DNA of 64,000 nucleotides, taken from assembly GCF_004120195.1 (NCBI RefSeq), contig NZ_SCHN01000014.1:124001-188000 (forward strand). The letters run 5' to 3'. Under the pieces are notes generated by a model, which was given only the letters and a program-made list of their open reading frames with translations, was not told the origin of the DNA and ran no database searches. How positions within the stretch are numbered: the first letter of the stretch is position 1; every line of letters starts with the position of its first letter. Source of the stretch: Enterovibrio baiacu. Lineage in GTDB: Bacteria; Pseudomonadota; Gammaproteobacteria; Enterobacterales; Vibrionaceae. Position numbers and translations under genes: made by a program. Below, piece by piece: positions 27,902-43,950 of this stretch.

Positions 27902-27913
27902 GAAACCTCGCGG

Positions 27914-29323
27914 TTACTCTTCGTCGAACGCAGGGCCTGCGTAATTATCAAAGCGTGAGAATTGACCTTGGAAGGTCAGACGTACCGAACCGATAGGACC
28001 GTTACGCTGCTTACCGATAATGATTTCAGCAATGCCTTTGAGTGGACTTTCAGGGTTATAAACCTCATCACGGTAGATGAACATGATAAGGTCGGCATCC
28101 TGCTCGATTGCCCCAGATTCACGCAAGTCGGAGTTAATAGGACGCTTGTCAGCACGCTGCTCCAACGAGCGGTTAAGCTGCGACAGGGCGACAACGGGCA
28201 CATTCAATTCTTTCGCCAGCGCCTTTAAAGAGCGGCTGATTTCAGAGATTTCCAAGGTACGGTTATCTTGCAGACCCGGTACACGCATCAACTGAAGGTA
28301 ATCGACCATGATCATGGAAAGCCCGCCATGGTCACGCGCAATACGACGCGCACGCGAGCGAACGTCCGTCGGTGTCAGGCCAGAGCTGTCATCGATGTAC
28401 ATGTTCTTCTTCTGGGTCAATAAACCCATGGTAGAAGAGATACGTGCCCAGTCTTCATCATCCAACTGGCCGGTACGAATTTTGGTTTGATCAACGCGAG
28501 AAAATGACGCCAACATACGCATCATCAGCTGTTCCGCGGGCATCTCTAGGGAGAAGATAAGCACCGGTTTTTCCTGATCCATCGCAGCGTTTTCACACAG
28601 GTTCATCGCAAAGGTGGTTTTACCCATGGATGGACGTGCCGCGACGATGATCAAGTCAGAGCCTTGTAGGCCCGCGGTTTTCTTGTTGAGGTCCGTGAAA
28701 CCAGTCGACACCCCTGTGACACCATCTTGCGGTGTTTTCAGCAGGATCTCGATACGTTCTAAGGTTTTCTCCAAAACATTTTCAACGTTCTGAGGGCCTT
28801 CACTTTCGCTCGTACGCGCTTCGGCAATGGCAAACACTTTGCTTTCTGCCATGTCCAAAAGATCTTCAGACGTACGCCCTTCAGGCTCATAGCCAGCATC
28901 GGCAATTTCATTCGCCACGCTGATCAGATTACGAACGACTGCACGTTCACGCACAATGTCAGCATAGGCGGTAATGTTCGCCGCACTTGGGGTGTTTTTT
29001 GCAAGCTCAGCCAGATACGCGAAGCCACCTACTTCGTCGAGATGACTGTTCTTTTCAAGGTGCTGCGACAGAGTAATAAGGTCAAGCGGGTTCCCGCTAT
29101 CAAGCAATTGCTTGGTGCTTTCAAAAATCATGCGGTGCGGTCGGCTATAAAAATCCGATGCCACCACTCTTTCTGCCACGCTGTCCCAGCGCTCGTTATC
29201 CAGCATTAAGCCGCCCAATACCGACTGCTCCGCTTCCAAGGAATGCGGTGGCACTTTCAGTGCGTCAACCTGACGGTCTTTGGGTTTGTTGGAGTTAAAT
29301 TGCTTGCTGCGTTGCTCTGCCAT
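27914..29323 (-). CDS. dnaB: Replicative DNA helicase DnaB
   Basis: A 469-residue hexameric helicase of the replication fork. N-terminal primase-interaction domain begins PHSLEAEQSVLGGLM; the RecA-like domain has Walker A ARPSMGKTTFAMN, Walker B (MIMVDYLQLM) and the DRRPINSDLRESGAIEQDAD loop. I chose the ATG at 29323 (MAEQRSKQ), which gives the E. coli-like length; an open frame continues 156 bases upstream without family similarity. No intein is present. Operon with alr. Confidence 0.97.
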   Translation of the reverse strand: MAEQRSKQFNSNKPKDRQVDALKVPPHSLEAEQSVLGGLMLDNERWDSVAERVVASDFYSRPHRMIFESTKQLLDSGNPLDLITLSQHLEKNSHLDEVGGFAYLAELAKNTPSAANITAYADIVRERAVVRNLISVANEIADAGYEPEGRTSEDLLDMAESKVFAIAEARTSESEGPQNVENVLEKTLERIEILLKTPQDGVTGVSTGFTDLNKKTAGLQGSDLIIVAARPSMGKTTFAMNLCENAAMDQEKPVLIFSLEMPAEQLMMRMLASFSRVDQTKIRTGQLDDEDWARISSTMGLLTQKKNMYIDDSSGLTPTDVRSRARRIARDHGGLSMIMVDYLQLMRVPGLQDNRTLEISEISRSLKALAKELNVPVVALSQLNRSLEQRADKRPINSDLRESGAIEQDADLIMFIYRDEVYNPESPLKGIAEIIIGKQRNGPIGSVRLTFQGQFSRFDNYAGPAFDEE

Positions 29324-29519
29324 ATCACTCGTTACCTTATCATTGCGCCCGACATTATATACCCAAACAACGCGAAGATGCTTGGGTATCACCCCAATCA
29401 GAAAAGGAATCCCTTGCTGAACGCAGGCTGACGCAATGATGAAATAAATTCCTGCCAATTTAACATCTTGCTGACGCATATTTGGCAGATTCCGTTAAAA
29501 TGTTTTTCCGATCTTAGTA

Positions 29520-30278
29520 ATGGTAAACCATATGGCCTCGGCGCTGTTGAAACCGTCTTTTTTTTGTCTGGTTGCACTCCCCTTTTGTGCATGGGCCGAT
29601 GACGTGCCCCCGCCTTGGCAATCTGAAGTCGAACTCGGTTTACAAACCCTCTCAGGCAACTCTGACTCTATCACGCTGAACACCCGTTTAGGGATGAACT
29701 ACACCAGTGGCCCATACCGCCACACCTCAGAAGTTAAGTTCCTGTTGGTCGAAAAAGACGGCGAGGAAGACAAGCGCAAAGGGGAAATGGAAAGTCAGGC
29801 CAACTATAAATTCGACCCCACACGCTATGTCCTCGCCAACATCACCTACACCAATGACAAGTATGGCCCTTACTTCGACGACTTTACCTTCGCGACAGGT
29901 TTAGGTTACCAAGCGATTTGGCGTGAAGACATGACCTTATTGCTAGAAATCGGCCCAGGTTATCGTTACCAAAAACCCAACCTTGATGAGATTGATGATG
30001 ACGATCTGATCCTGCCGCACAACGTGCAAGAGTTCATCGTCAGAGGACAAGCAGAGTTAATGTGGCAAATGACCAAAACCGCTGAACTCCAAGGTCGCTT
30101 AACCACCATCAGTGGACCAAGTAACACCAGTTTCGAAGCGCGCCTTTCGGTGCAAACCAGTTTGATTGATGACTTGGCGATCAAAATCTCCACCACGCAA
30201 AAGTACATCAACGACGTCCCACCAGGGCTCAGTAATCTGGATTCGATTTTTACCGTGAATATGGTTTATAAGTTTTAG
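29520..30278 (+). CDS. DUF481 outer-membrane protein
   Basis: A 252-residue exported barrel (signal peptide FFCLVALPFCAWA) of the DUF481/YdiY type: WQSEVELGLQTLSGNSDSI, TYTNDKYGPYFDDFTFATGLGY, and a C-terminal VYKF. Function is unknown. ATG at 29520 or 29532 could be the start. It lies on the plus strand between the otherwise colinear rplI and dnaB, and is followed by a heptamer repeat array. Confidence 0.85.
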   Translation: MVNHMASALLKPSFFCLVALPFCAWADDVPPPWQSEVELGLQTLSGNSDSITLNTRLGMNYTSGPYRHTSEVKFLLVEKDGEEDKRKGEMESQANYKFDPTRYVLANITYTNDKYGPYFDDFTFATGLGYQAIWREDMTLLLEIGPGYRYQKPNLDEIDDDDLILPHNVQEFIVRGQAELMWQMTKTAELQGRLTTISGPSNTSFEARLSVQTSLIDDLAIKISTTQKYINDVPPGLSNLDSIFTVNMVYKF

Positions 30279-30280
30279 GC

Positions 30281-30329
30281 AAGATTTGAGATTTGAGATT
30301 TGAGATTTGAGATTTGAGATTTGAGATTT
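30281..30329. repeat. Tandem heptamer repeat, unit GAGATTT
   Basis: Six perfect GAGATTT units (30288-30329) preceded by one imperfect unit, starting three bases after the DUF481 stop codon. It shares the GAGAT core with the array at 7743-7826. Confidence 0.95.
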
Positions 30330-30432
30330 GGCAGAGTAAAAATCAATACGTAGCAACATCAAGTCATCGGTTTTCGCTTTTGCACTTTCTCGCCACTCGA
30401 AACTGCTCTTATCTCGTTTCTTAGGTACAAAA

Positions 30433-30456
30433 AAACCGGCCCTGAGGCCGGTTTTT
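30433..30456. terminator. Terminator of the rpsF-rplI operon
   Basis: AAACCGGCC-CTGA-GGCCGGTTT hairpin with A and T runs, just after the rplI stop on the minus strand and usable from the DUF481 side. Confidence 0.88.
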
Positions 30457-30478
30457 TCAAAGCTTACGTGTGTCTGAA

Positions 30479-30928
30479 TTACTCAGCAACAACGTTAACT
30501 TTAACAGTAGCAAATACTTCAGAGTGCAGTTGCAGACTGATTTCGTATTCGCCAGTGTTACGTAGTGCACCTTCTGGCAGGCGAACTTCGCTCTTCGCTA
30601 CTTTAACACCAGCTGCAGAAACTGCATCTGCGATGTCACGAGTACCGATAGAACCGAATAGTTTACCTTCGTCACCAGCTTTAGACGCGATAACAACCGC
30701 TTCTAGAGCTTCAACTTGCTCAGCGCGAGCACCAGCAGCAGCTAGAGTCTCAGCAACTTTTGCTTCAAGCTCAGCACGACGAGCTTCGAAGTGCTCAACG
30801 TTTGCTTTAGTTGCCATAACAGCCTTACCTTGTGGGATAAGGAAGTTACGAGCGTAGCCAGACTTAACTGCTACTTGATCACCTAGTGAACCCAGGTTAC
30901 CGATTTTATCAAGCAGAATAACTTGCAT
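30479..30928 (-). CDS. rplI: 50S ribosomal protein L9
   Basis: A 149-residue L9 with the family start [19 protein letters not shown] and the [15 protein letters not shown] signature, linker helix, and C-terminal rRNA-binding domain. It ends the rpsF operon. Confidence 0.98.
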
Positions 30929-30959
30929 TATCTAATCCTCTTAAAATTGGCAGTGCCGA

Positions 30960-31202
<243 letters not shown>

Positions 31203-31508
31203 CTAAATATCTATAATTTCATCGGCATGTAACACTAATTTACCTTGGCCGTTACGGCTGGTTTGGTAAGCGAGAAACCCGCCGACCTTAATGTGACTGC
31301 CTAAAGCTAAATGCTGAGTTTGGTTTTGCGACCCCTGCCCGCTGATGACGACCGGTAACCGGCAATACACCTGCCTTTGCAGTGCAGCTTCCTGTTGTTC
31401 CGAACGGTGCTCTATCACAAAGTGACAATGCGGTATGCCGGCAGGGCTCTGCTTTCGAATCGGGCCTTGAGCGATAACGCCTGCAAGCTCAATCCGATTG
31501 GTCTTCAA
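31203..31508 (-). CDS. priB: Primosomal replication protein N, PriB
   Basis: A 101-residue OB-fold single-strand DNA-binding protein used in PriA-dependent replication restart. NRIELAGVIAQGP and CHFVIEHRSEQQEAALQRQ fit PriB. It lies in the standard rpsF-priB-rpsR order. Confidence 0.95.
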   Translation of the reverse strand: MKTNRIELAGVIAQGPIRKQSPAGIPHCHFVIEHRSEQQEAALQRQVYCRLPVVISGQGSQNQTQHLALGSHIKVGGFLAYQTSRNGQGKLVLHADEIIDI

Positions 31509-31514
31509 ATCAAA

Positions 31515-31901
31515 TTACTCTGCTGCTGCTTCGTCTTCAGATTGTGCTTCTGCACGTTCTTCACGACGAGGTGCGCGCTCTTCTTTAGCCTTCATCATTA
31601 CAGATGGCTCAGTGATAGCGCCTTTGGTACGCATGACCATGTTACGGATCACAGCGTCGTTGAAGCGGAAAGCGGTTTCCAGCTCATCAACTACTGCTTG
31701 GTCAGCTTCAACGTTCATAAGAACGTAGTGTGCTTTGTGCAGTTTGTTGATTGGGTAAGCCAGTTGACGACGACCCCAGTCTTCTAGACGGTGGATCTGA
31801 CCACCTGACTCTTTGATAGAACCAGTGTAACGCTCGATCATGCCAGCAACTTGCTCGCTTTGATCAGGGTGCACCATGAATACGATTTCGTAATGACGCA
31901 T
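31515..31901 (-). CDS. rpsF: 30S ribosomal protein S6
   Basis: A 128-residue S6 ([18 protein letters not shown] ... [24 protein letters not shown]) with an acidic C-terminal tail rich in Glu (EDEAAAE), the region RimK can extend with glutamates in E. coli. First gene of the rpsF-priB-rpsR-rplI operon. Confidence 0.98.
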
Positions 31902-32330
31902 AGGTTGCTCCTTACGGATTATTCAGCTTCCAGTGTTGGCCCAGTCGTCCAAAGGAAGCAAGGAACGAAAGTAAAAGACTGGGAATTTGGAGGCAGGATA
32001 GTACAGAATTGCATCGTTAATAGCAATCACTATTCGCATACCAAACTGAATTGGCAAAAGGCATTGCTTAACTGCGTGTATTTTCCCGTTCAAATCACTT
32101 TTGTGATGGCACGCAGATTCCGCATCAGAAGATATAACCAGACATGGAGTTACCCCCATCACGCTTTTCTGGTTAGCACGCGCTAATTTATAAGCTCACG
32201 ATCACATAAAGCTGTCCAATCTGTCGTCATTTCCGCTTGTTTCCACTTCAAAACGGAAAAAGTGCCTCTCCTCCCTCTGTGCCTTACCACTTATCTTTCA
32301 CTCAACGCAACAACGTCTGGAGAGACACTC
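31902..32330. other. Divergent control region between rpsF and the DUF4310-4312 operon
   Basis: About 430 bases without a gene. It contains the rpsF leader on the minus strand, where many gammaproteobacteria carry an S6:S18-binding RNA structure, though I could not assign one here. It must also hold the plus-strand promoter of the sugar-acid operon. A TGGCACGCAGATTCC stretch near 32109 resembles a sigma-54 -24 box but lacks the -12 GC pair. Confidence 0.45.
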
Positions 32331-32681
32331 TTGCAAACCTCTACACCGTTACACCCGGATGATGCGCTCATTGTAGAAGAAGGCACATCCATTACTGAAC
32401 GCGCGATCGCACTGCTAGGCGAACACAACATCTACCCAGATTCGCTGCAACAGAAAATGCTCGCTACGCACATTAAAGCCATGGTCTGGCGCTCTCACAG
32501 CGGTGAAGCACTGCCTGAGCTAGAGCTGGAAATGTTTGAGGAAATTTCAGCGCTGTCGCTGACGCTAGCAGAGCAAACCTGCAGCTGGCTAAACAACCTC
32601 GCATATGAAGAAGCACACCTTTTATCAGTCCACTTCGAAGTGGCGAAAGAAAACGAATTAAGCACCGCTAAAGGAGAATAA
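32331..32681 (+). CDS. Small PRD-like protein of the DUF4310-4312 operon
   Basis: A roughly 116-residue all-helical protein resembling the stand-alone PRD domain family (EF_0829/AHA_3910 type) that opens this operon in Enterococcus and Aeromonas. PRD domains are normally phosphorylated by PTS proteins; His residues are in THIKAMVWRSHSG. It has no DNA-binding domain. I chose the TTG at 32331 because GGAGAG lies seven bases before it; a GTG at 32262 lacks such a site and would add 23 unrelated residues. The gene ends two bases before the SFCGS gene. Confidence 0.65.
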   Translation: MQTSTPLHPDDALIVEEGTSITERAIALLGEHNIYPDSLQQKMLATHIKAMVWRSHSGEALPELELEMFEEISALSLTLAEQTCSWLNNLAYEEAHLLSVHFEVAKENELSTAKGE

Positions 32682-32683
32682 AC

Positions 32684-33052
32684 ATGTCAGTACTAAAACT
32701 TGTAATCGGCGATCGCATGGGTAAAGGCCAGAAAGTTGGCGCAGGCGCAGAAGCTGCAGGTGCACAAGTCACCGTGATCCCTGGTATGGCTGCGGACATG
32801 AAGCTGGGCGACATCATGAACCAGCAAGAAGCACAAATGGGTATTTCATTTTGTGGTAGCGGCGGTGCAGGTGCCATCACAGCGCAAACCAAATATGGCT
32901 ACAAATGTCGTTACGGCATGCGCTCAGTCGAAGAAGGCATTACGGCAATCAATGATGGTTGTGTGGTTCTAGGCTTTGGCTTCAATGACAAAGAAGAACT
33001 CGGCGAGAAACTCGTTAAAGCATTCATGGCGAAACACGGTATCAGTGCATGA
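32684..33052 (+). CDS. SFCGS-family glycine-rich protein
   Basis: A 122-residue cytosolic protein named for its SFCG(S/T) motif, here GISFCGSGGAGAITAQT near residues 50-65, with N-terminal LVIGDRMGKGQKVGAGAEAAG. The Gly-rich loop and single conserved Cys recall PTS EIIB-type proteins and the unrelated YhfU/DUF2620 family, but the role is undescribed. Its stop overlaps the next start by four bases, so SFCGS and DUF4312 proteins are probably made in equal amounts and may form a complex. Confidence 0.85.
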   Translation: MSVLKLVIGDRMGKGQKVGAGAEAAGAQVTVIPGMAADMKLGDIMNQQEAQMGISFCGSGGAGAITAQTKYGYKCRYGMRSVEEGITAINDGCVVLGFGFNDKEELGEKLVKAFMAKHGISA

Positions 33053-33342
33053 AAGAACAGCTGACCACTGACGTCATTGTTAGTGGGAAAGGCGAAACAA
33101 AGCAGCAGGCTTTTGCTGCTGCTTTGAGCCAGATCCAACCCACGTTGCTAAAGAACAACCAAAACGTTCTCCTCAGGATTGAACCTTTAGACGTCAAAGT
33201 GCTGGAAGCAGAAGAAAATGCAAGAACAGAGAAATTCCTTTTCTTCTTCTTACCCAGAGAGCGACGTCAATACCGCGTCAAGCTAGAGGTTACTGTCAGC
33301 CTAACCCACATTGATGTGGAGCAGGTCGACTTCAAACGCTAA
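33049..33342 (+). CDS. DUF4312 family protein
   Basis: A 97-residue soluble alpha/beta protein (VIVSGKGETKQQAFAAALSQI, FLFFFLPRERRQYRVKLEVTV). The family is known only from this gene neighbourhood. The start overlaps the SFCGS stop (ATGA). A basic FLPRERRQ segment might contact the membrane partner or a phosphorylated ligand; that is a guess. Confidence 0.83.
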   Translation: MKEQLTTDVIVSGKGETKQQAFAAALSQIQPTLLKNNQNVLLRIEPLDVKVLEAEENARTEKFLFFFLPRERRQYRVKLEVTVSLTHIDVEQVDFKR

Positions 33343-33366
33343 CAAGCCACTCAAAGGATCACTGAC

Positions 33367-34143
33367 ATGTTCTCTGTCATTTTATTTAAGTCGCTCATTA
33401 TTGGTGGCTTAGTTGGTATCGGCGTCGGCGTCGGTGCTGCGAGGATGTTCCACGCCCCCACCGTTCAGGGTATGGGTGCGTTCCGTACGCTCGGCGAATT
33501 GAACTCTTGTGAAGGCGACCCTGCTTCTCACTTTTCTTTTGGCCTTGGCTTCTTCTTCAACGCGTGGGCATCCACGGTTGCTGCAGGTGCATTCACACAA
33601 GATGTTGACCACCGCATTCTGCCTAACTGGGGCGCCGCGGCACTCATGGTCAAAAATCGCGATCTGGCGACCACACTGCATGACCCGAAACGTATGGGCA
33701 TTGCCTGTGCCATCATCGGTGCCATTGTCGTTGCCTTCCTTAACTCCACTGCCGCCGCCGTTCCAGCTGCGCTTCAGGTGACTGCTGTCAAAGTACTGGT
33801 GCCTGCCGCAAACCTGCTGGTAAACACCGTCATGCCGGTGATCTTCTGGCTGGCCGCCATTGAAGCGGGTAAGAAATCAGGCTTCTGGGCAACCATCTTT
33901 GGTGGTCTTGCGCAGATGATCATGGGTAACGCAGTACCAGGTCTGGTTTTGGGTATTTTGATCGGTAAAGGCGTCGAAGAAAGCGGCTGGAACAAAGTTA
34001 CCAAGATCATGATGAGTGCCATCATTGCGCTGTTCGCTCTGAGTGCTTTCTTCCGCGGTTTTGACATGCAACTAATCGAGTCTTTCCACATGCAAGTACC
34101 GATGTGGCTTGAAAACATCCATCTCATGATGAGCGGTAAATAA
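33367..34143 (+). CDS. DUF4311 membrane protein
   Basis: A 258-residue polytopic membrane protein with about seven hydrophobic segments (LFKSLIIGGLVGIGVGVGAA, GIACAIIGAIVVAFLNSTAA, LLVNTVMPVIFWLAAIEAG, AVPGLVLGILIGKG, IMMSAIIALFALSAFF). Conserved polar motifs in a membrane setting (SHFSFGLGFFFNAWASTVAAG, LNSTAAAVPAALQ) suggest a substrate pathway. It precedes DUF4310 by 11 bases. The pair is a plausible two-subunit transporter; no experiment is known to me. Confidence 0.83.
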   Translation: MFSVILFKSLIIGGLVGIGVGVGAARMFHAPTVQGMGAFRTLGELNSCEGDPASHFSFGLGFFFNAWASTVAAGAFTQDVDHRILPNWGAAALMVKNRDLATTLHDPKRMGIACAIIGAIVVAFLNSTAAAVPAALQVTAVKVLVPAANLLVNTVMPVIFWLAAIEAGKKSGFWATIFGGLAQMIMGNAVPGLVLGILIGKGVEESGWNKVTKIMMSAIIALFALSAFFRGFDMQLIESFHMQVPMWLENIHLMMSGK

Positions 34144-34154
34144 GGGGTCTTACC

Positions 34155-34802
34155 ATGGATGAAAAAATGAGAAACAATTTCTGGTACGCAGACTGGTCTT
34201 TCCCAATCTTTGTTGGTCTGCTGTCCTCGGGTGTCTTCGCGGGTACCCACATGTACTACCTTCACGGCGTCGGCGCATTTAACGAAGTCGCATTCGTTTC
34301 TATGTTCCGCGCAGGCATGGACACTGGCGCATATGGCGCGGTGGCAGCCTTCGGAGCAAGCTTCTTGTTTGCACGCATTATTGAAGGCTCGCTGGTCGGT
34401 ATCTTGGATATCGGTGGCGCCATCCAAACGGGCGTAGGCCTAGGTATTCCTGCTCTGCTACTTGGTGCTGGCATTGTTTACCCAGTGGAAAACTTCACCG
34501 CATCATTGATCACCGGCATGGTGGCAGGTTTAGCCATCGGCGGTCTCATTATTCTGGCGCGTAAATTCACCATCAACCAAAGCGATTCCACCTACGGCGC
34601 TGACGTCATGATGGGGGCAGGTAACAATTCAGGTCGCTTCCTAGGCCCTCTGATTATTCTGTCTGCCATGGGTGCATCGATTCCAATCGGTATCGGCGCT
34701 TTGATTGGCTCACTGATTTTCTATGTGTGGGGCAAACCCATCACAGGTGGCGCAATCCTTGGCGCAATGGCACTCGGCACTATGTTCCCAATCGCACTGT
34801 AA
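34155..34802 (+). CDS. DUF4310 membrane protein
   Basis: A 215-residue polytopic membrane protein with about six hydrophobic segments (FPIFVGLLSSGVFAGTHMYY, LVGILDIGGAIQTGVGLGIP, LITGMVAGLAIGGLIIL, GPLIILSAMGASIPIGIGAL, GGAILGAMALGTMFPIAL). Glycine-rich helices and the conserved FRAGMDTGAYGAVAAFGAS segment resemble membrane transporters or energy-coupling subunits. Always encoded with DUF4311. A short GC-rich hairpin follows. Confidence 0.83.
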   Translation: MDEKMRNNFWYADWSFPIFVGLLSSGVFAGTHMYYLHGVGAFNEVAFVSMFRAGMDTGAYGAVAAFGASFLFARIIEGSLVGILDIGGAIQTGVGLGIPALLLGAGIVYPVENFTASLITGMVAGLAIGGLIILARKFTINQSDSTYGADVMMGAGNNSGRFLGPLIILSAMGASIPIGIGALIGSLIFYVWGKPITGGAILGAMALGTMFPIAL

Positions 34803-34810
34803 TCTTTCTA

Positions 34811-34828
34811 CCCCGCTTTCGGGCGGGG
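34811..34828 (+). other. Intercistronic hairpin between transport and catabolic genes
   Basis: CCCCGC-TTTCGG-GCGGGG forms a tight stem-loop eight bases after the DUF4310 stop. There is no T run, so it is more likely an mRNA-stability or processing element than a terminator. Confidence 0.5.
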
Positions 34829-34845
34829 CTATCGAGACACCCGCT

Positions 34846-35982
34846 ATGTACGACGTCCTAATAAAAAACGCAAAATTGGTTTCCGGTGAGATAACCGACA
34901 TTGCCATCAAAGACGGCAAAATTGCTGCACTAGGCACCCTTACCGACGCCAACGCCACCCGCACAATCACGCTTGATAACCCTATCTTCGTCAGCGCAGG
35001 TTGGATTGATGGCCATACCCATTGCTACCCAAACTCGCCGATTTACAACGACGCACCTGATGCCATTGGCGTCACGGGCGGTGTGACCACGGTGATTGAT
35101 GCCGGCAGCACGGGCGCTGATGATGTTGATGACTTCGCTGAATTAGCCAAAGCCTGTCAAACCGAAGTGCGTGCATTACTGAACATATCTCGCATTGGGT
35201 TGCTTCGCCAAAATGAACTCGCTGACAAGAATGACATCGATCTTCCCCTTGCTAAACAAGCCGTGGAACGCCACCCAGACTTCGTCGTGGGCCTAAAAGT
35301 TCGCATGAGCGGCAGCGTGATCGGCGAGAACGGTTTAGCCCCCTTGAAGTCAGCCAAACAGCTTCAACATGATTGCGGCTGCTTGCCTCTGATGGTGCAT
35401 GTGGGTAACGCGCCCCCAACACTTGAAGACATTGCCGTTTTGTTGGGCGAAGGCGATATCTTGACGCATTGCTTTAATGGCAAACCAAACCGCATTTTGA
35501 CCCCAGAAGGAAAGCTTCGCGGTGCAGTGAAAGATGCGATGGAGCGCGGGATGTTGCTCGACATCGGCCACGGCAGTGCGAGTTTCAGCTTCGATGTCGC
35601 AGAGCAATCAATCCAGCAAGGCATTTTGCCTGACACCATCAGTTCAGACATTTACTGCAAGAACCGCATCAACGGTCCGGTGTATGGGCTAGCGCATTTG
35701 ATGTCGATGTTCTTCACCCTTGGTCTAAGCCACGAACAAATCATCGAACGCGTCACGGTGAACATCGCAAAAGCCCTTCGCTTAGAAACCAAAGGCCAGA
35801 TTGCCATCGGTTGCGATGCAGATTTGACGTTATACGAAATCGAACAAACGCCTGTCACTTTCACTGATACCGAAGGCGACACACGAACTGGCGAACAACG
35901 TTTCGCACCGCTAGCGGCGATCGTTGGCGGCAACCTTATATTGACTGACAGAGGACACACACACCATGTCTTCCATTCTTGA
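34846..35982 (+). CDS. Amidohydrolase/deacetylase family metallohydrolase
   Basis: A 378-residue TIM-barrel amidohydrolase of the EF_0837/AHA_3915 type. Metal ligands are readable: HTH (His57, His59), carbamylated Lys candidate Lys151 (GLKVRMSG), His185 (MVHVGN), His208 (LTHCFNG), Asp268 (SSDIYC). This fits a binuclear deacetylase or cyclic-amide hydrolase. In this operon a likely job is removing an N-acyl group from an amino-sugar acid before the ammonia-lyase step. I chose the ATG at 34846; a longer frame from 34723 would run through the DUF4310 gene. The end overlaps the next gene by 17 bases. Confidence 0.87.
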   Translation: MYDVLIKNAKLVSGEITDIAIKDGKIAALGTLTDANATRTITLDNPIFVSAGWIDGHTHCYPNSPIYNDAPDAIGVTGGVTTVIDAGSTGADDVDDFAELAKACQTEVRALLNISRIGLLRQNELADKNDIDLPLAKQAVERHPDFVVGLKVRMSGSVIGENGLAPLKSAKQLQHDCGCLPLMVHVGNAPPTLEDIAVLLGEGDILTHCFNGKPNRILTPEGKLRGAVKDAMERGMLLDIGHGSASFSFDVAEQSIQQGILPDTISSDIYCKNRINGPVYGLAHLMSMFFTLGLSHEQIIERVTVNIAKALRLETKGQIAIGCDADLTLYEIEQTPVTFTDTEGDTRTGEQRFAPLAAIVGGNLILTDRGHTHHVFHS

Positions 35983-37075
35983 AAAATACAATCTTAAGCA
36001 TGTCATCAACGCTTCTGGTCGCATGACCGCGTTGGGCGTATCCACGCCGCAGCCCGACGTTGAAGAAACCGTCTGCTTTGGCATGAACAATTACTTCGAA
36101 ATGAAAGATCTGGTAAATAAAAGCGGCGAATACATAGCGCGCTTGCTGGATGTAGAAAACGCCGTTGTCGTCTCTTGTGCATCGGCAGGTATCGCGCAAA
36201 GCGTCGCGGCAATGATTGTGCGTGGTGATACCTACCGTCTCGAGCAGCTGCACGCCCATTCACATGATGTACCGAATGAAATCGTTATTCCGAAAGGCCA
36301 CAACGTCAATTTCGGCGCACCGGTTGGCACCATGATCAACCTAGGTGGTGGTCAAATCGTTGAAGCGGGCTGGTCAAATGAGTGCAGTGCCGCGCAACTG
36401 GGTGCCGCCATCAACGCAAACACCGCCGCCATTCTTTACATCAAATCTCACCACTGCGTGCAAAAGAGCATGTTGTCCGTGGAAGATGCAGCAGCCGTTG
36501 CCAAAGCCCATAACGTGCCTTTGATTGTGGATGCCGCCGCCGAAGAAGACCTGCGGCTTTACTACCAACAAGGTGCTGACTTGGTCATTTACAGTGGCGC
36601 AAAAGCCATTGAAGGCCCAACCAGCGGATTGGTGTTGGGCAAGCATGAATATGTGGAGTGGGTGAAGCAACAATCATCGGGCATCGGTCGAGCAATGAAG
36701 GTGGGTAAAGAAGGCATTCTTGGCCTTACCCATGCAATTGAAATCTACCTTGAGCGCCAACAAGAAACCGGCTCAGAGATGATCAGCAAAATGACCCCAT
36801 TTATTGAAGGCCTAAACGCATTACCTGGCATTCAGTCTCGCGTGGTTTGGGACAGTGCAGGGCGCGATATCGCCCGTGCAGAAGTGAGTTTTGATGCCGA
36901 CGTATTTGGCCTTTCAGCAAACGATGCTGTCGCCAAACTACAAAGCGGCAACCCTGCGGTGTACTGCCGTGCATACAAAGCCAATGAAGGCTCTATCGAA
37001 TTTGACGTGCGCAGCGTCTCTCAAGAACAACTACAACAAGTTCTCGCTGCCATGACCGAACTAAATCAGGAGTAA
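35966..37075 (+). CDS. DgaE-family PLP-dependent ammonia-lyase
   Basis: A 369-residue fold-type I PLP enzyme close to SelA and DgaE. The PLP lysine is Lys213 in YSGAKAIEGPTSG; Asp189 (LIVDAAAEED) should bind the pyridine nitrogen; substrate-side residues include INASGRMTALGVSTP. DgaE in Salmonella converts D-glucosaminate-6-phosphate to 2-keto-3-deoxygluconate-6-phosphate plus ammonia. The same chemistry on a related 2-amino sugar acid phosphate is expected here, followed by the aldolase encoded next (4-base gap). Confidence 0.87.
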   Translation: MSSILEKYNLKHVINASGRMTALGVSTPQPDVEETVCFGMNNYFEMKDLVNKSGEYIARLLDVENAVVVSCASAGIAQSVAAMIVRGDTYRLEQLHAHSHDVPNEIVIPKGHNVNFGAPVGTMINLGGGQIVEAGWSNECSAAQLGAAINANTAAILYIKSHHCVQKSMLSVEDAAAVAKAHNVPLIVDAAAEEDLRLYYQQGADLVIYSGAKAIEGPTSGLVLGKHEYVEWVKQQSSGIGRAMKVGKEGILGLTHAIEIYLERQQETGSEMISKMTPFIEGLNALPGIQSRVVWDSAGRDIARAEVSFDADVFGLSANDAVAKLQSGNPAVYCRAYKANEGSIEFDVRSVSQEQLQQVLAAMTELNQE

Positions 37076-37079
37076 CACC

Positions 37080-37823
37080 ATGTCTCTTAGCCCTAAATAT
37101 TATGCTGACCGTGTTTGTTTGAACGTATTGGCCGGCTCACACCAAAACGCGGTTGAAGTGTTTGACGCATCAGAAGGCCACGTGCTCGTGGGTATGCTTT
37201 CAAAGAACTACCCTGATGTACCAAGTGCAGTGGAAGACATGAAAGCGTGCGCTGAAAAAATCGGCAACGCGCTGTCTATCGGCCTTGGTGCGGGCGATCC
37301 GAATCAGTCTGACATGGTCACTGAACTAGCGGGTATCCTTCAACCTCAGCACGTGAACCAAGTATTCACTGGCGTGGGCAAAAGCCGTAACGCGCTAGGC
37401 CAAAACGACACCGTCGTGAATGGCTTGATTTCACCAACGGGCACCGTGGGCATGGTAAAAATTTCTACCGGCCCTAAATCATCCGGCATGGCTGACGCCA
37501 TCGTTCCTGTGGATACCGCTATTGCCATGTTACAAGACATGGGTTGCAGCTCTGTTAAATACTTCCCGATGGGCGGCTTAGCATCTCGTGATGAATATGA
37601 AGAAGTTGCCAAGGCATGTGCGCGCAACAATTTCTGGTTAGAACCAACAGGTGGGATTGACCTTGCAAACTTTGAGGAAATTTTGCGAATTGCTTTGGAT
37701 GCAGGTGTCGAGAAGGTTATACCTCACATCTATAGCTCAATCATCGATTCTTCCACCGGTGAAACCCGTCCAGAAGATGTAAAAACACTGTTAGAAATCA
37801 CTAAACGTCTGCTTTCTCGCTGA
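37080..37823 (+). CDS. KDGP aldolase (DgaF family)
   Basis: A 247-residue aldolase of the 2-dehydro-3-deoxy-phosphogluconate type that yields pyruvate and glyceraldehyde-3-phosphate. The likely Schiff-base Lys160 lies in CSSVKYFPMGG and the phosphate loop in EPTGGIDL. It completes a deacetylase, ammonia-lyase, aldolase route into central metabolism. It is the last structural gene; a long hairpin follows before the regulator. Confidence 0.87.
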   Translation: MSLSPKYYADRVCLNVLAGSHQNAVEVFDASEGHVLVGMLSKNYPDVPSAVEDMKACAEKIGNALSIGLGAGDPNQSDMVTELAGILQPQHVNQVFTGVGKSRNALGQNDTVVNGLISPTGTVGMVKISTGPKSSGMADAIVPVDTAIAMLQDMGCSSVKYFPMGGLASRDEYEEVAKACARNNFWLEPTGGIDLANFEEILRIALDAGVEKVIPHIYSSIIDSSTGETRPEDVKTLLEITKRLLSR

Positions 37824-37872
37824 TTCAAACGGCAGCGCACTTCATGTGTGCAATGGCATGTCGACGTCGTGT

Positions 37873-37917
37873 TGCCGAGTACGTTTGCTCACCTTCCTGT
37901 GACAAACGTACTCGGCA
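37873..37917. repeat. Long perfect inverted repeat between the aldolase and regulator genes
   Basis: A 15-base perfect stem TGCCGAGTACGTTTG / CAAACGTACTCGGCA, extended after one unpaired C by TCAC/GTGA around a CTTCCT loop. No T run follows, so it is not a standard terminator. It lies 50 bases after the aldolase stop and 33 before the regulator start. It may act in mRNA processing, as a protein-binding RNA, or as a regulator binding site. Confidence 0.85.
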
Positions 37918-37950
37918 CCTAACCAGTGAAGCAATAGGAAACGCCCAAAC

Positions 37951-39855
37951 ATGTCCAAGCTCCCTCACCCTCGTCTGATTCGCTTACTCGATGCCGTCAC
38001 AAACACCCCGTTAACTCAAGAAGAGATAGCCCAAAAACTCGCCGTTTCAACGCGCACTGTCAGGACGGATGTCGCGACACTCAACAATGTGATGGTCAAT
38101 CACGGCGCCCACATGATCCACCAGCGTGGCGCTGGCTATCAACTCAAGATTTATAACCAAGAGGCGTTCAGTGCGTTTCAACAAGCCGTTCGAGATGCAG
38201 ATCCAGCTCCGCGCACAAGTAAAGAACGCATCGTTCAAATTCAAGTACTGCTACTGACTTCTGATGATTGGGTCAAACTCGATGACCTAGCAGACACGTG
38301 GAACCTTAGCCGAACAGCGGTACAAGGTGATATGGCAGATGTGCGAGGTCAGCTTTCACCGTTTGACTTACACATTGAAAGTAAGCCGCGTTTGGGGATG
38401 CGCATCGTGGGAAGCGAAACGGCGATTCGAGCGCGTTTGGCACAAATAATCTATGCAGAGCAAAAAGAATCACAACGCACACGCGGATTGATTGGCACAC
38501 TGTTTCCGACCAAGTCGCAGCAGGTTTTTGCATCGCGTTTTCGTGAAGTATTATCCACGATAAACCTGTATATCAATGATGACGGTCTGCAGTGGCTCGC
38601 CATTTATGCCGCCGTTACCTTACAGCGCTTAGCCGCCGGCCAAGCGTTAAGTGATTTTCCAAAAGAAGATGTGATTGACGATATTCTGCCTATCGCTTCT
38701 ACCATGTTTGATGTTTTACCGATGCTGCTGCCCGCGAATGAGGATGAGATTGCGGCACTTGCCGTGCATGTCCAGGCGCGTATTACGGCTAATCAGTTTC
38801 ATTTAAATAGTCGCGTGGTCAGTGAAGCAGAAGAGTTGGTCAACCACATACTAAACTATGTACATCAACACTATCCCTACGATATCCGAGATGATGAACA
38901 GCTAAAAAAAGATTTAAAAACGCACATCAGCAATATGATCATTCGCGTGAAGCACCACGTTGCGACGGTAAACCCCCTTGCTGAACATATTAAGCAGCAC
39001 TACCCGCTCGCCTACGATATTACACTCGCCGCAATTGCCGATTGGATACGAACAACAGGCTACTGCATGACACAACATGAAATTGGATATCTGGTTATTC
39101 ACGTTGGAGTCGGCTTAGAACGCAACCACTGCTTGTATCAACGTGCACCGAAAGCACTTTTGTTCTGCGATGCAGGAAATGCAGCCTCCCGTGGATTAGA
39201 AGCCATCATTCGTCGTCATTACCCTTTATTACAGTTGCAGACTATTCACTCTGAAAAGGCACTTGAGAATCTTCAACCTTCAAACGTAGATATGCTGATA
39301 TCGACATCAGCCAACGTGTCTTCCGGCGTGCCTTTATTTGTTCTCGACCCGTTCCCCACGCAGCACCAGCTCGAAGAACTCGGTAAGCTGGTTCTGGTCG
39401 ACCGTACTGGCCCATACATGTTGGAGAAATACTTTTCCGACGAGCAATTCTTGTATATCGACGAGACAATCGACCAGGCCACTTTATTTGACAAAGTCTG
39501 CGGCCAACTAGAGTCTCAAGGCTTAGTGGAAAAAGGCTACGGTGCGTCGTTAAAAGAACGAGAGGTGATCGTCTCTACCATGATGGGCGAACACATTGCC
39601 CTTCCTCACTCCATCGAACTGTTTGCAAAGCGCTCCTTGGTCTACACCGTCGCGGCACCACGTGGTATCGATTGGGGTAACGGCGAAAAAGCCTATCTGG
39701 TGTTTTTCATGGCGCTCAGTAAACACGACTATGAAGACGCCATGGGCCTGTATGATTTGTTCCTCACGCTAGTGAATAACAAGGCCGGAAAAGGGTTATC
39801 GCAATGCGAAACATTCCCTGATTTCAAACTGCTCGCCCATCAAGAATTGGCATAA
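37951..39855 (+). CDS. PRD-containing transcriptional regulator with EIIB and EIIA domains
   Basis: A 634-residue regulator of the MtlR/LicR class. Order: two HTH segments (LTQEEIAQKLAVSTRTVRTDV near the start; LADTWNLSRTAVQGDMADV near residue 120), two PRD domains (phospho-His candidates in AVHVQARITANQFH and VIHVGVGLERNH), an EIIB-like domain with Cys in LFCDAGNAASRG, and an EIIA domain with its His in IALPHSIEL. Phosphorylation by HPr and an EII partner would tune activity. No complete PTS permease is encoded here, so the sensor input may come from another PTS or from the small PRD protein. It probably activates the upstream operon. Confidence 0.9.
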   Translation: MSKLPHPRLIRLLDAVTNTPLTQEEIAQKLAVSTRTVRTDVATLNNVMVNHGAHMIHQRGAGYQLKIYNQEAFSAFQQAVRDADPAPRTSKERIVQIQVLLLTSDDWVKLDDLADTWNLSRTAVQGDMADVRGQLSPFDLHIESKPRLGMRIVGSETAIRARLAQIIYAEQKESQRTRGLIGTLFPTKSQQVFASRFREVLSTINLYINDDGLQWLAIYAAVTLQRLAAGQALSDFPKEDVIDDILPIASTMFDVLPMLLPANEDEIAALAVHVQARITANQFHLNSRVVSEAEELVNHILNYVHQHYPYDIRDDEQLKKDLKTHISNMIIRVKHHVATVNPLAEHIKQHYPLAYDITLAAIADWIRTTGYCMTQHEIGYLVIHVGVGLERNHCLYQRAPKALLFCDAGNAASRGLEAIIRRHYPLLQLQTIHSEKALENLQPSNVDMLISTSANVSSGVPLFVLDPFPTQHQLEELGKLVLVDRTGPYMLEKYFSDEQFLYIDETIDQATLFDKVCGQLESQGLVEKGYGASLKEREVIVSTMMGEHIALPHSIELFAKRSLVYTVAAPRGIDWGNGEKAYLVFFMALSKHDYEDAMGLYDLFLTLVNNKAGKGLSQCETFPDFKLLAHQELA

Positions 39856-39857
39856 AA

Positions 39858-39884
39858 AAAGGAGCCCTTGAGGCTCCTTTTTAT
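39858..39884. terminator. Bidirectional terminator after the PRD regulator
   Basis: AAAGGAGCC-CTTGA-GGCTCCTTT hairpin with A and T runs, between the convergent regulator and rlmB genes. Confidence 0.88.
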
Positions 39885-39904
39885 ATATCACAGGTGGTAG
39901 ACGT

Positions 39905-40642
39905 TTAGCTGCGGCGCTGACGCACTGCTTCAAACAGGCAGATACCGCTTGCGACAGACACGTTCAAACTCGACACACTGCCAGCCATTGGAATGCTGAT
40001 CAGCTCATCACAGGTTTCACGCGTTAGGCGGCGCATACCGTCGCCTTCTGCCCCCATGACGATCGCCAGTGGACCTGTCATTTTGCTTTGGTAGATGTCA
40101 TGCGTGGCTTCGCCCGCAGTACCTACAAACCACACGCCTTTTTCTTGCAGTGCTCGCATGGTGCGCGCAAGGTTGGTTACACGAACCAACGGCACAATTT
40201 CTGCCGCGCCAACAGCAACTTTACGCACGGTTGCACTCAATGGAGCAGAGCGGTCTTTCGGAACGATAATCGCACACGCACCTGCCGCATCGGCGTTACG
40301 CAGACATGCACCTAAGTTATGCGGATCTGTGACGCCATCAAGAACCAGCAACAGTGGGTTATCTTTGCCTTCTAGAATCGCATCAAGGTCATTTTCGTTG
40401 TACTGACGACCTTGCTTAACACGTGCAATCAAGCCCTGATGCGACGCACCATCAGCTTTATCATCCAACGCCTTGCGTCCCATTTCCTGAGTGGTGATGC
40501 CAAGCTCAGCCAATTCCTTCAGCACGGGCAGTAAACGATCGTCTTCACGACCTTTTAAAACATAAACTTCGATAAAGCGTGCAGGATCAGATGCCAACAC
40601 GGCTTTGACGGCATGAATGCCATAAATCATTTCATTGCTCAT
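39905..40642 (-). CDS. rlmB: RlmB, 23S rRNA Gm2251 methyltransferase
   Basis: A 245-residue SPOUT (TrmH-like) enzyme that 2'-O-methylates G2251 of 23S rRNA. N-terminal L30e-like RNA-binding part; C-terminal knot motifs [33 protein letters not shown] and [18 protein letters not shown]. It starts 12 bases after rnr and shares its transcript, as usual. Confidence 0.97.
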
Positions 40643-40654
40643 GAGTTACTTCTT

Positions 40655-43198
40655 TTAATTGCCGGCTTTCGCGGGTTTGCCTCGTTGCGCTTTTTTCTTA
40701 CGCACCTTCTGAGCCTTGCTCTTTTTCTTCGCTGGAGTTCCATCCGTCGCTTTGTTTGCGGATTGGCCTTTGTTCGCCGATGGACCTTTGCGATGGCCTT
40801 TACCTTTGCCCTTCCCTTTACCTTCAGGGGCTTTATCGTCCCCACCAGCTTTTGGAATAGCGCCACGTTTTAGTTGCTGACGAACAGACCCGCGCTCTTT
40901 GCTGAATTCAGGGTTCTTGCCCGATTCAGCTCGGCCTTTCTTGGCATGTTTGCGCGCTGTTTTACCTGCACCGCGCGGTTTACGCGTTGTGCCTTCCAGT
41001 TCGAAATCGATCATCCTTTCATCAAGGTTGACGGATAATACTTTGACCGTGACCTGATCGCCAAGTTGGAAAACGCGACCAGAGCTCTCACCCACGAGCT
41101 TTTGACCCACCATGTCGTAGTTATAGTAGTCATTGTCTAGGTTCGAGATATGGACAAGACCATCAATGTGAAGCTCATTCAGGCGCACAAAGAAACCGAA
41201 TCCTGTCACGTTTGCAATCGTCCCCGCAAGGGTATCGCCAACGTGGTCTTGCATGTACTCACACTTTAGCCAATCCGACACGTCACGTGTTGCATCATCT
41301 GCACGACGTTCTGTCATCGAACATTGCTCACCCATCACATCCATGTCATCGAATGAATAATGGAAGCCGCCGGTTGGTGTCCAGCGATCAGTGTTGCGGC
41401 CTTCTTGCTTGGCAATAAGGTACTTAATCGCGCGGTGCAGCAACAAGTCTGGGTAACGACGAATTGGCGAGGTGAAGTGTGCATACTGCTTCAACGCCAA
41501 ACCAAAGTGACCTTGGTTGTCTGCTTGATATACCGCCTGCTTCATTGAGCGAAGCAGCATAGTTTGGATCAATTCGCGATCTGGGCGGCTTTGAATCAAG
41601 TGCGCCAGTTGTGCGTAATCTGTTGGTGATGGCGATAAACCACCATTGAGTGACAGACCCATTTCACCCAAGAAATCTTTAAAGCCAGTAAGACGCTCTT
41701 CACCCGGCGCTTCGTGCACACGGTAGAGCGCGGCTTCTTTGTGTTTTTCGACGAAACGTGCAGAGGCAACGTTGGCCAAAATCATACATTCTTCGATGAT
41801 CTTGTGCGCATCGTTACGCTCCACAGGCACGATACGTTCAATCTTGCGCATCGCATTGAAAATGAACTTGGTTTCGACGGTTTCAAATTCAATGGCACCA
41901 CGTTGCTCACGCGCACCTTTTAGCACTTTGAACATCTTATTCAGTTCTTCAAGGTGCGGCACCAACGGTGCGTAGCGATCGCGAAGCTCTTCGTCGCCAT
42001 CCAACATCTGCGCCACTTTGGTGTACGTCAGGCGTGCATGCGAATTCATTACAGCTTCGTAGTGCTTGTAGCCTGAAAGGTTGCCTGACTCGGAGATGGT
42101 CATTTCACAAACCATACACAGACGATCGACCTGCGGGTTCAAAGAACACAAACCGTTAGACAGCACTTCAGGCAGCATTGGAATAACTTGCGACGGGAAG
42201 TACACCGAGTTACCACGGTTGATGGCTTCTTTGTCTAGCGCTGAATCAGGACGCACATAGTAGCTCACATCCGCGATGGCAACCCATAGACGCCAACCAC
42301 CTGATTTTTTCTTCTCACAATAGACGGCATCATCAAAGTCACGCGCGTCTTCACCATCGATGGTCACCAATGGCAATTCACGTAAATCTACGCGACCGAC
42401 TTTCGCCTCTTCAGGCACCTCTTCTGTCAGGCCTTTGATCTGCTTTTCAACGTCTTTTGGCCACACATTGGGAATGTCATGGCTACGCAGCGCAATTTCA
42501 ATTTCCATACCCGGTGCCATGTTCTCACCCAGTACTTCGACGATACGGCCCATCGCACCTTGTTGGCGTGTTGCGCGTTGGAAAACTTCCACCACCACCA
42601 CATTGCCCATGCGAGCGCCTTTACGATCATCTTTAGGAATAATGATGTCTTGGCTTAAACGCGAGTCATCAGGCACCACGTAGGCGTTACCATCTTCCAA
42701 GAAGAAACGACCAACGATTTGGCCTTTGCGTTCTTCAAGCACGCGCACAACGCGTGCTTCTTTGCGGCCTCGCTTATCAGTGCCTGCAGGTTGCGCGAGA
42801 ATGAAATCGCCATGCATGACGCTTTTCATTTGATGATGCGGCAAGAGCCAGTCTTCTCGATTGCCTTTGCCTTCTGGGCGTAAGAAGCCGAAACCATCGC
42901 GGTGGCCAATCACGGTGCCTTTCACCAAGTCCAGGCGTTCTGGCAAGGCGTAGCATTGGCGACGAGTAAAGATAAGCTGTCCATCACGCTCCATGGCGCG
43001 AAGGCGGCGACGAAGACCTTCATACTCTTCGTCTGATTTTAAGCCCAGCACGTCAAAAAGCTGGTCACGGTTAACCGGCGTGCTGAAACCTTTAATGACT
43101 TCTAGTAGGTGCTCGCGGCTTGGTACCGGATTGTCATATTTTTCTGCTTCACGAACCAAATGCGGATCGTTGCTATGTAGGTGTTTGTCCTGAGACAT
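40655..43198 (-). CDS. rnr: RNase R, 3'-5' exoribonuclease
   Basis: An 847-residue RNase R. Order: N-terminal helix-turn-helix (~30-80), two cold-shock domains, the RNB catalytic domain beginning [18 protein letters not shown] with the four Asp, an S1 domain ([25 protein letters not shown]), and a ~110-residue Lys/Arg/Gly-rich tail. RNase R degrades structured RNA. The basic tail is longer than in E. coli and highly repetitive (KGKGKGKG), typical of marine relatives. Confidence 0.97.
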
Positions 43199-43310
43199 AT
43201 AGGATTCCCGTTAGCGACACTTGATTTCAAGTATATCGCTTTAAATAAAAGAAAATGGGTGCCCAGCAGAATTGCCACGAAAAAATGACGACAAGTTATC
43301 AATACGCTTG

Positions 43311-43745
43311 TTAAGCCGGGCGAACAGGGATAAGAAGGCGGTGTAGGTTGTTATTTCCTGCCACCAAATCGTGAAGTGTGTGGTTGTCCATCTCTGTAAG
43401 AAATGCCTGCATCGCTTTCGCGAGTGCATCTTTTAGACGACAAGCGGGGGTGATATGACAGTTGTCTTCACCACAATTGACAAGATGCAGAGGTTCAAGC
43501 GCTCTGATCACTTCGCCAATGACAATTGATGCTGCTGGTTTGCCTAATCGTATCCCGCCATTCTTTCCACGGACGGCTTCTACGTAGCCTGCCTGACTCA
43601 TACGGTGGATGATTTTCACCATATGATTTCGAGACACCCCATACTTTTCTGTGACCACGCTAATGCTGGTCAACTCTCCGGGCGGCAGCATAGCCAGATA
43701 CATGAGAGCCCTTAGGCCAAAGTCTGTAAAACTGGTTAATTGCAC
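43311..43745 (-). CDS. nsrR: NsrR, nitric-oxide-sensing repressor
   Basis: A 144-residue Rrf2-type repressor with the winged helix [30 protein letters not shown] and three Fe-S cysteines in [14 protein letters not shown] damages its Fe-S cluster and frees target promoters such as hmp. I chose the GTG at 43745, preceded by AGAGGAGA, which gives the E. coli NsrR start [10 protein letters not shown]. It heads the nsrR-rnr-rlmB order and is divergent from hmp. Confidence 0.95.
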
Positions 43746-43886
43746 GTTTTCAAATCTCCTCTGGCGCATTGTACCCTGAACTGATGTAAAAGGCGCGCTT
43801 CGTCACTGTTTCTTTTTTCTCCAACTTTATCAGCATTGATCATCTTTGCCTTTCTTCAAAATAAAAGATCATTTTTAGTTGATCTA

Positions 43887-43909: not shown

Positions 43910-43911
43910 AA

Positions 43912-43934: not shown

Positions 43935-43950
43935 TAAAGAAGAGACGAAT

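Follow-up and report, generated by a model that had tools for sequence, protein, structure and literature searches.

A nine-gene cluster of Enterovibrio baiacu predicted to couple breakdown of an N-acylated amino sugar acid to a candidate phosphotransferase-dependent uptake module

The window analyzed here, a 64,000-nucleotide stretch of the Enterovibrio baiacu genome (contig NZ_SCHN01000014.1, positions 124,001 to 188,000), contains nine plus-strand genes that, in the open reading frame (ORF) list, fill positions 32331-39855. We give a probability of about 0.5 to the reading that these genes form an operon for the catabolism of an N-acylated 2-amino-2-deoxy sugar acid, equipped with a five-protein uptake module that depends on the phosphotransferase system (PTS). 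The best guess for the substrate is N-acetyl-D-glucosaminate (GlcNAc1A). The putative PTS-dependent module would be made up of a stand-alone PRD protein and the SFCGS, DUF4312, DUF4311 and DUF4310 proteins.

In the proposed mechanism, DUF4311 and DUF4310 would form the membrane part of the module and SFCGS and DUF4312 its soluble subunits, while the PRD protein would serve as the entry point for HPr-phosphate and the substrate would reach the cytoplasm as a 6-phosphate. The amidohydrolase would then take off the acyl group, converting acyl-hexosaminate 6-phosphate to hexosaminate 6-phosphate, from which the DgaE-type lyase would form 2-keto-3-deoxygluconate 6-phosphate (KDG-6-phosphate), and the aldolase would split the latter into pyruvate and glyceraldehyde 3-phosphate. 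This route through acyl-hexosaminate 6-phosphate is proposed because the DgaE arginines are conserved and the aldolase scores above the DgaF equivalog cut-off. The analysis itself shows the family assignments, the fixed gene order, the co-occurrence across genomes, the predicted SFCGS fold, the retained residues and an HPr-EI gene beside the cluster on Bartonella plasmids; from these we infer transport and phosphorylation by the module, the identity of the substrate and the path of the phosphate.

Results

Architecture of the cluster

An earlier note on this DNA had reported eight tight plus-strand genes plus a regulator, whose coordinates all held. The eight packed genes run from the PRD gene to the KDGP aldolase gene, with the regulator gene, the ninth, 127 bases further on. 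The SFCGS and DUF4312 genes overlap by 4 bases and the amidohydrolase and DgaE genes by 17. Eight of the nine proteins exceed curated NCBIfam cut-offs, and that set holds no model for the regulator. The features are as follows.

32102..32117, plus strand: weak CRP-like site with 2 of 10 specified positions mismatched, the best found within 350 bases ahead of the PRD gene
32331..32681, plus strand: stand-alone PRD protein of the EF_0829/AHA_3910 family, with a TTG start at 32331 (TIGR03582)
32684..33052, plus strand: SFCGS protein with the invariant Cys57 and a predicted RpiB/LacAB fold (PF14272, TIGR03577, structure model)
33049..33342, plus strand: DUF4312, small soluble partner with no hydropathy segment above threshold (PF14189, TIGR03578)
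33367..34143, plus strand: DUF4311, polytopic membrane protein with 5 segments passing the hydropathy threshold used, candidate permease half (PF14188, TIGR03580)
34155..34802, plus strand: DUF4310, polytopic membrane protein with 5 hydropathy segments and a low-confidence all-helical model, candidate permease half (PF14187, TIGR03579)
34846..35982, plus strand: amidohydrolase of the EF_0837 family, predicted deacylase (TIGR03583, 530.4 bits against a cut-off of 432.15)
35966..37075, plus strand: DgaE-family pyridoxal phosphate (PLP) ammonia-lyase (TIGR01437, 581.1 bits)
37080..37823, plus strand: KDGP aldolase of the DgaF type (DgaF equivalog NF047796, 377.4 bits against a cut-off of 300; TIGR03581; PF07071)
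37951..39855, plus strand: transcription regulator with a helix-turn-helix, PRD domains in two stretches, an EIIB-like stretch with CDAG, and EIIA (PF08279, PF00874, PF00359; translation)

The amidohydrolase start at 34846 was picked by alignment with relatives. Scored with the longer ORF from 32262, the stand-alone PRD protein reaches 126.3 bits with TIGR03582 (cut-off 69.35); with the Pfam PRD model it stays under the cut-off, at 18.4 bits against 23. The regulator's CDAG motif, read from the translation, lies at the position expected for the EIIB-like Cys, and the PRD stretches and EIIA found by Pfam bear out the PTS phospho-acceptor domains that the earlier note had ascribed to this protein. 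The same note had seen no ATP-binding cassette (ABC), tripartite ATP-independent periplasmic (TRAP) or classic PTS permease, and none is present in the ORF list of 27000-45000, which was read by eye, the flanks without domain search. Just upstream of the cluster, an RpsF leader RNA lies on the minus strand (31899-31982), ahead of a divergent ribosomal protein operon.

The cluster is conserved in order and is gained or lost as a unit

A scan with DUF4310 returned 322 relatives, and the best 80 of these gave the loci of the first scan. The detected cluster genes stand in identical order in 80/80 of these loci, which places the arrangement beyond chance. Genes are absent from only three of the 80 (L011, L059 and L072), all of which stop at contig ends. 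The PRD gene, which the earlier note had left out of the module, precedes the SFCGS gene in every one of the 81 loci that reach far enough upstream (the other 7 of the 88 do not). All nine genes are present in 81 of the 110 loci of a later set, with median gaps, in gene order, of 20 (PRD-SFCGS), 2 (SFCGS-DUF4312), 33, 14, 63, -14 (amidohydrolase-DgaE) and -1 bases.

Within the 81 complete loci, gaps of more than 300 bases hold a lactonase gene (present in 31 loci overall), an opposite-strand ORF in one (L035), no sizeable ORF in two (L020 and L063) and insertions in Enterococcus faecalis; in L058 the gap reflects a start or frame problem of DUF4311, whose start lies in another frame. The lactonase is a 6-phosphogluconolactonase-like, seven-bladed protein encoded between aldolase and regulator (for example L084:12786-13940), and it would fit a lactone precursor ahead of the sugar acid. 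The opposite-strand ORF, of 440 residues, occupies the same interval in Yersinia aldovae.

Among 197 genomes of the window's order, DUF4310 occurs in 21, and a KDGP aldolase above cut-off occurs in the same 21; the two further aldolase matches are both below cut-off. The separate occurrence of the families and the catabolic genes, which the earlier note had raised as a possibility, was thus not seen. SFCGS scores above cut-off in 19 of the 21, the exceptions being G420, whose assembly is 75% complete, and G431. The latter carries a decaying cluster (L162, G431:C3:30000-42000) in which the SFCGS start and the DUF4310 end lie 10 bases apart, and its remnant consists of an aldolase with two stops, a short regulator and a DgaE frame that is still open. 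Across 398 genomes of the phylum, DUF4310 was found in 12, all in the window's order and with the window's genome counted. Beyond the order, the cluster was seen on two plasmids of Bartonella and in a single E. faecalis record, the only Bacillota record sampled. The presence of DUF4311 and DUF4312 was judged only within fetched loci. A scan of viral contigs did not find the cluster, and the Lactococcus lactis control genome gave an SFCGS match below cut-off. Given the co-occurrence in the 197 genomes, the 12 of 398 in the phylum and the decay in G431, the cluster is uncommon, and its genes move or disappear together. The grouping of four orphan families with the catabolic genes into one unit, made in the earlier note, agrees with both the conserved order and the genome co-occurrence.

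The catabolic enzymes retain their active-site residues

The amidohydrolase HxH motif, Lys152, His186, His209 and Asp269, which we take to be the metal ligands, are present in 108 of 108 aligned sequences. In the DgaE-family lyase, the PLP Lys213, His163 and the phosphate-cluster residues R304, R335 and R349 are kept in 86/86 sequences, a set limited to those of at least 350 residues (85 of 109 plus that of the window; the shorter ones are mostly cut by locus ends). By alignment, these three arginines correspond to Arg-301, 332 and 346, which the available text of PMC9529869 places near a manually docked phosphate in a DgaE-family lyase. The window enzyme belongs to the TIGR01437 subfamily and scores 387.8 bits with the D-glucosaminate-6-phosphate lyase equivalog NF047797, under the cut-off of 600. 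Family models and conserved residues thus agree with the catabolic part assigned earlier, namely a deacetylase-type amidohydrolase, a DgaE-like lyase and a KDGP aldolase.

A link to the PTS and the source of the phosphate

On plasmids of Bartonella sp. HY761 and HY406, an HPr-EI fusion is encoded 64 bases behind the cluster's regulator. The fusion contains all four Pfam domains, and its GLHARPA and GGATSH phosphorylation motifs are intact; a full-length HPr-EI match was found in no other of the 110 loci. The regulator itself, with PRD, EIIB and EIIA domains, belongs to a type found in PTS operons. The gammaproteobacterial clusters showed no kinase among their genes. PTS dependence of uptake gains support from the Bartonella HPr-EI, the retained DgaE phosphate-cluster arginines and the lack of a kinase in the gammaproteobacterial clusters, and the PTS link suspected in the earlier note is strengthened by the fusion on the two plasmids.

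An HPr-like gene also lies behind the regulator, on the opposite strand, in 30 of the 110 loci (for example L018:15771-15992 and L023:17100-17345), from Aeromonas, Serratia, Hafnia and Chimaeribacter. This is presumably NPr (ptsO), and its closeness to the cluster may be only positional. CRP-like sites are enriched upstream, which counts in favour of the proposed operon: 43% of 86 loci have one with no more than a single mismatch, versus 0.8% of shuffles, with the loci being related rather than independent. The window's own site is weak, as an equally good one arises in 14% of shuffled sequences.

The E. faecalis record shares the cluster genes but has the regulator first and adds a PfkB sugar kinase as well as, at L082:12782-15514, a lactose/cellobiose-family EIIC, a 99-residue membrane protein and a MupG-family protein. 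The kinase has no match at an E value of 1e-4 in the other 109 loci. The presence of the EIIC, the 99-residue membrane protein and MupG inside the cluster suggests that in this organism the enzymes also receive a second phosphorylated sugar.

These data bear on an alternative that we consider possible but rather unlikely, in which the membrane pair is a non-phosphorylating secondary transporter or channel, HPr-phosphate on the PRD protein and the regulator only switches, SFCGS binds or gates, and the 6-phosphate comes from a kinase elsewhere or arrives ready-made. The regulatory role of PRD domains in the known cases speaks for this alternative, as does the combination of PfkB kinase and EIIC in the E. 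faecalis cluster. A precedent is the Pseudoalteromonas ong system, which, in the available text of PMC9537276, takes up GlcNAc1A by a sodium symporter and places the kinase last. The kinase-free gammaproteobacterial clusters, the conserved DgaE phosphate-cluster arginines and the complete HPr-EI that accompanies the cluster on the Bartonella plasmids all argue in the opposite direction.

SFCGS is predicted to adopt the RpiB/LacAB fold

The SFCGS structure model, built from 21 sequences, has a mean predicted local distance difference test (pLDDT) score of 83.9 and comprises five beta-alpha units. In a Foldseek search with this model, the 35 best rows were all RpiB/LacAB proteins (best E value 1.2e-4, TM-scores by query length of 0.59-0.71). 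VIA-align likewise placed 23 entries of this family first, with Z scores of 12.0-8.2 and the next entry at 7.9; the comparison with 6fxl_C gave a Z of 12.0 and a root mean square deviation of 2.6 over 115 aligned residues. As judged from the model, SFCGS thus has a predicted ribose-5-phosphate isomerase B (RpiB/LacAB) fold.

Profile support alone for the relation is modest. SFCGS scores under the cut-offs of both Pfam LacAB_rpiB (PF02502; 14.8 bits against 24.7, E value 0.028) and the NCBIfam RpiB model (16.1 bits against 168.2, E value 0.0075). In a profile search of 177,635 PDB sequences, two RpiB chains rank first and second with weak E values of 0.27 and 0.85. Alignment of SFCGS and RpiB profiles by hhalign gave an E value of 0.00042 (probability 34), and the deeper alignment 0.0007 (probability 6.4), the latter with a score of 27.0 compared to 14.8 for its reversed decoy. 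Overall, reversed alignments scored 10.0-16.3 versus 22.4-27.3 for the SFCGS, YhfU and RpiB pairs. The RpiB profile left out 14 of 30 loci, with 13 kept by a motif rule and three added.

The earlier note had pointed to a single conserved Cys in SFCGS, and C57 is indeed present in 25/25 aligned sequences. In the PDB profile alignment it falls on Cys66 of E. coli RpiB (2vvr), the catalytic Cys, and it lies in a CG[ST]G loop as in RpiB/LacAB. The ungapped alignment puts N90 of SFCGS at the position of RpiB His99, with Asn in 25/25 sequences, and SFCGS, which is ~30 residues shorter than RpiB/LacAB proteins, ends before their C-terminal Arg/His. The available text of PMC4783025 assigns the catalytic roles to the Cys and to His99 (E. 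coli numbering) and substrate contacts to the C-terminal Arg/His. SFCGS and RpiB/LacAB are therefore alike in predicted fold and in the Cys within a glycine loop, and differ in that SFCGS scores below the Pfam cut-off, has Asn for His99 and lacks the C-terminal phosphate-binding Arg. Because of the Asn at the His99 position and the missing C-terminal Arg/His, SFCGS looks like an RpiB relative that keeps the Cys and glycine loop without the isomerase machinery.

The fold comparison bears directly on the suggestion in the earlier note that SFCGS acts like an EIIB. The phosphorylatable Cys of EIIB sits in the loop directly after beta-strand 1. In the SFCGS model, strand 1 spans residues 5-10 and Cys57 follows strand 3 (52-56). 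The hhalign profiles gave no signal between SFCGS and the EIIB-type proteins SrlE, ManX and AgaV, and the lactose EIIB 3nbm matches the model with a VIA-align Z of 7.1, among unrelated folds, and at Foldseek rank 46. As a statement of relatedness, the EIIB comparison is thus not supported: the best matches are RpiB/LacAB proteins, and homology to EIIB was rejected because of the predicted fold and the location of the Cys.

A new class of PTS permease, in which phosphate would pass from HPr to the PRD protein as EIIA, to Cys57 of SFCGS as a convergent EIIB and on to the sugar acid in DUF4311/DUF4310, with yhfY/yhfU/yhfT as a second lineage, is an unlikely elaboration. DUF4312 shows no invariant His or Cys in the aligned sequences, and thus the visible phosphate acceptors would be the PRD His and SFCGS Cys57.

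It is distinctly unlikely that SFCGS, with DUF4312, is instead an aldose-ketose isomerase or epimerase of the RpiB/LacAB type that acts on a pathway intermediate and leaves uptake to DUF4311/DUF4310. The fold, the retained catalytic Cys and an Asp, and the presence of a uronate isomerase (4u8f) among the RpiB relatives would all suit such an enzyme. However, the His99 position is an invariant Asn, the C-terminal Arg/His described in the available text of PMC4783025 lie beyond the SFCGS end, and the deduced pathway has no need of an isomerase. In addition, the SFCGS gene abuts the DUF4312 gene and precedes the membrane genes, much as yhfU precedes yhfT.

The PRD protein, DUF4312 and the membrane pair

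Two His residues are fully conserved in the stand-alone PRD protein (81 sequences), and invariant His were seen in no other small protein of the module. The protein is thus a candidate, by sequence, for an HPr-phosphorylated carrier or switch. For DUF4312, whose alignment leaves out one short sequence (L067), the PDB matches (for example RecA fusions) were rejected as repeat artefacts.

We infer a permease role for DUF4311 and DUF4310. The view of the earlier note that the four families form a new transporter is supported in so far as they and the catabolic genes make up a single module, with the membrane pair as the candidate permease. Neither DUF4311 nor DUF4310 has a further Pfam match to a PTS EIIC or EIID of the mannose, glucitol or lactose types. 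A duplication relation between the two was not accepted (E value 0.047, probability 1.1).

A sensor complex at the membrane that feeds the regulator, with uptake by an unlinked permease, would suit the signal-type regulator and PRD protein but is highly improbable, as two polytopic proteins are strictly linked to three enzymes, the Gammaproteobacteria and Bartonella clusters hold no other permease and G431 loses the whole cluster together.

A partial parallel in the E. coli yhf operon

The E. coli yhf operon encodes a stand-alone PRD protein (YhfY), a small CNTGAG-loop protein (YhfU) and a membrane protein (YhfT). The only other Pfam match of YhfU is LacAB_rpiB (E value 0.065). With hhalign, YhfU and RpiB gave an E value of 0.00062, and SFCGS and YhfU gave 0.0085 and 0.0037. 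The PDB profile search with YhfU ranked EvgS first and its best RpiB-type row fifth (E value 0.56), and the case for YhfU as an RpiB relative is thus weaker. YhfU stands beside YhfT, with YhfY present, in 6/6 further loci (the yhf loci are L127 and L134-L139; the near-duplicate YhfT/YhfU of L137 was omitted from one hhalign comparison). When 10 stand-alone PRD proteins were aligned together, only Q41, H48 and R55 were invariant, and the second His of the SFCGS-linked proteins is missing from YhfY. A weak YhfT match in genome G308 was dropped because its ORFs indicate an unrelated membrane protein. Because YhfT matches neither DUF4311 nor DUF4310, the parallel, as drawn from sequence, is limited to the soluble parts. 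The yhfZYXWVUTS operon and the cluster both include a PRD protein, a small Cys-loop protein with an RpiB signal (weak in YhfU), a membrane protein and an enzyme of the amidohydrolase-superfamily type; the remaining enzymes differ.

Discussion

Several results weigh against the proposed sugar acid operon with PTS-dependent uptake. With regard to the membrane pair, a search of PDB sequences found no relative of note for DUF4311 or DUF4310, and hhalign gave no signal for either against SrlA, SrlE, ManY, a partial ManZ, AgaC, AgaD and the E. faecalis EIIC, in comparisons that used single sequences and shallow profiles. The DUF4310 model, the only membrane model, has a pLDDT of 49.6 and is too poor for a fold search. 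YhfT, considered as a fused DUF4311+DUF4310, was rejected, as reversed decoys outscored this match and hhalign E values were 0.34, 0.14 and 0.25. With regard to phosphorylation, in E. faecalis it may come from another source, and PTS phosphorylation could serve the regulator only. The DgaE arginine conservation predicts a phosphorylated substrate, a prediction that draws on manual docking and on an alignment with no unphosphorylated control family, and, given the sub-cut-off equivalog score, the DgaE substrate may not be exactly D-glucosaminate 6-phosphate. Lastly, a strict tie to GlcNAc1A from chitin finds no significant statistical backing: 8 of 21 genomes with the cluster carry chitin lytic polysaccharide monooxygenase genes, versus 41 of 176 others (Fisher p 0.18), with two such genes in the window's own genome.

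If the proposed operon functions as outlined, five orphan families found in Vibrio, Aeromonas, Yersinia, Serratia, Klebsiella, a Bartonella plasmid and Enterococcus gain a testable role. Should the module prove to phosphorylate the sugar acid, its proteins, which are not known from the PTS, would make up a PTS permease. The predicted fold moreover ties SFCGS to E. coli YhfU, providing a handle on the yhf operon. In addition, the cluster is a candidate for the Aeromonas rivuli GlcNAc1A route that, in the available text of PMC11653859, is left unconfirmed; a GTDB A. rivuli contig (L018) carries the whole cluster.

The families and their clustering were already recorded as hypothetical equivalogs in the conserved cluster EF_0829-EF_0839/AHA_3910-AHA_3917 (NCBIfam TIGR03577-TIGR03583 and TIGR01437), which has the same genes and models without function. 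The description of the system as undescribed in the earlier note therefore applies to its function, which has not been assigned, and not to the gene set. Queries of open-access full texts with the DUF names and the E. faecalis or Aeromonas locus tags found no paper that treats the function of the cluster or of yhf; from the E. faecalis tags, a single PTS gene tag came up.

The closest catabolic counterparts are known in other bacteria. The permease of the Salmonella dga system is a PTS permease of the mannose family, and the system is not known to include a deacylase. The window cluster adds an amidohydrolase, and the permease is replaced by the PRD, SFCGS, DUF4312, DUF4311 and DUF4310 proteins. 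Common to dgaABCDEF, as far as the available text of PMC9529869 describes it, and the window cluster are the DgaE-family lyase, the DgaF-type aldolase and active-site residues. The Pseudoalteromonas ong pathway for GlcNAc1A shares the logic of deacetylation, deamination and KDG-6-phosphate; in the available texts of PMC9537276 and PMC12017989, it imports by a sodium symporter, deacetylates with a D-aminoacylase-like enzyme and keeps its intermediates unphosphorylated, the kinase acting last. In the window cluster, phosphorylation is predicted to come first, and thus the order is reversed. Set against these systems, the cluster is a known kind of catabolic operon, with an uptake module that may be categorically new.

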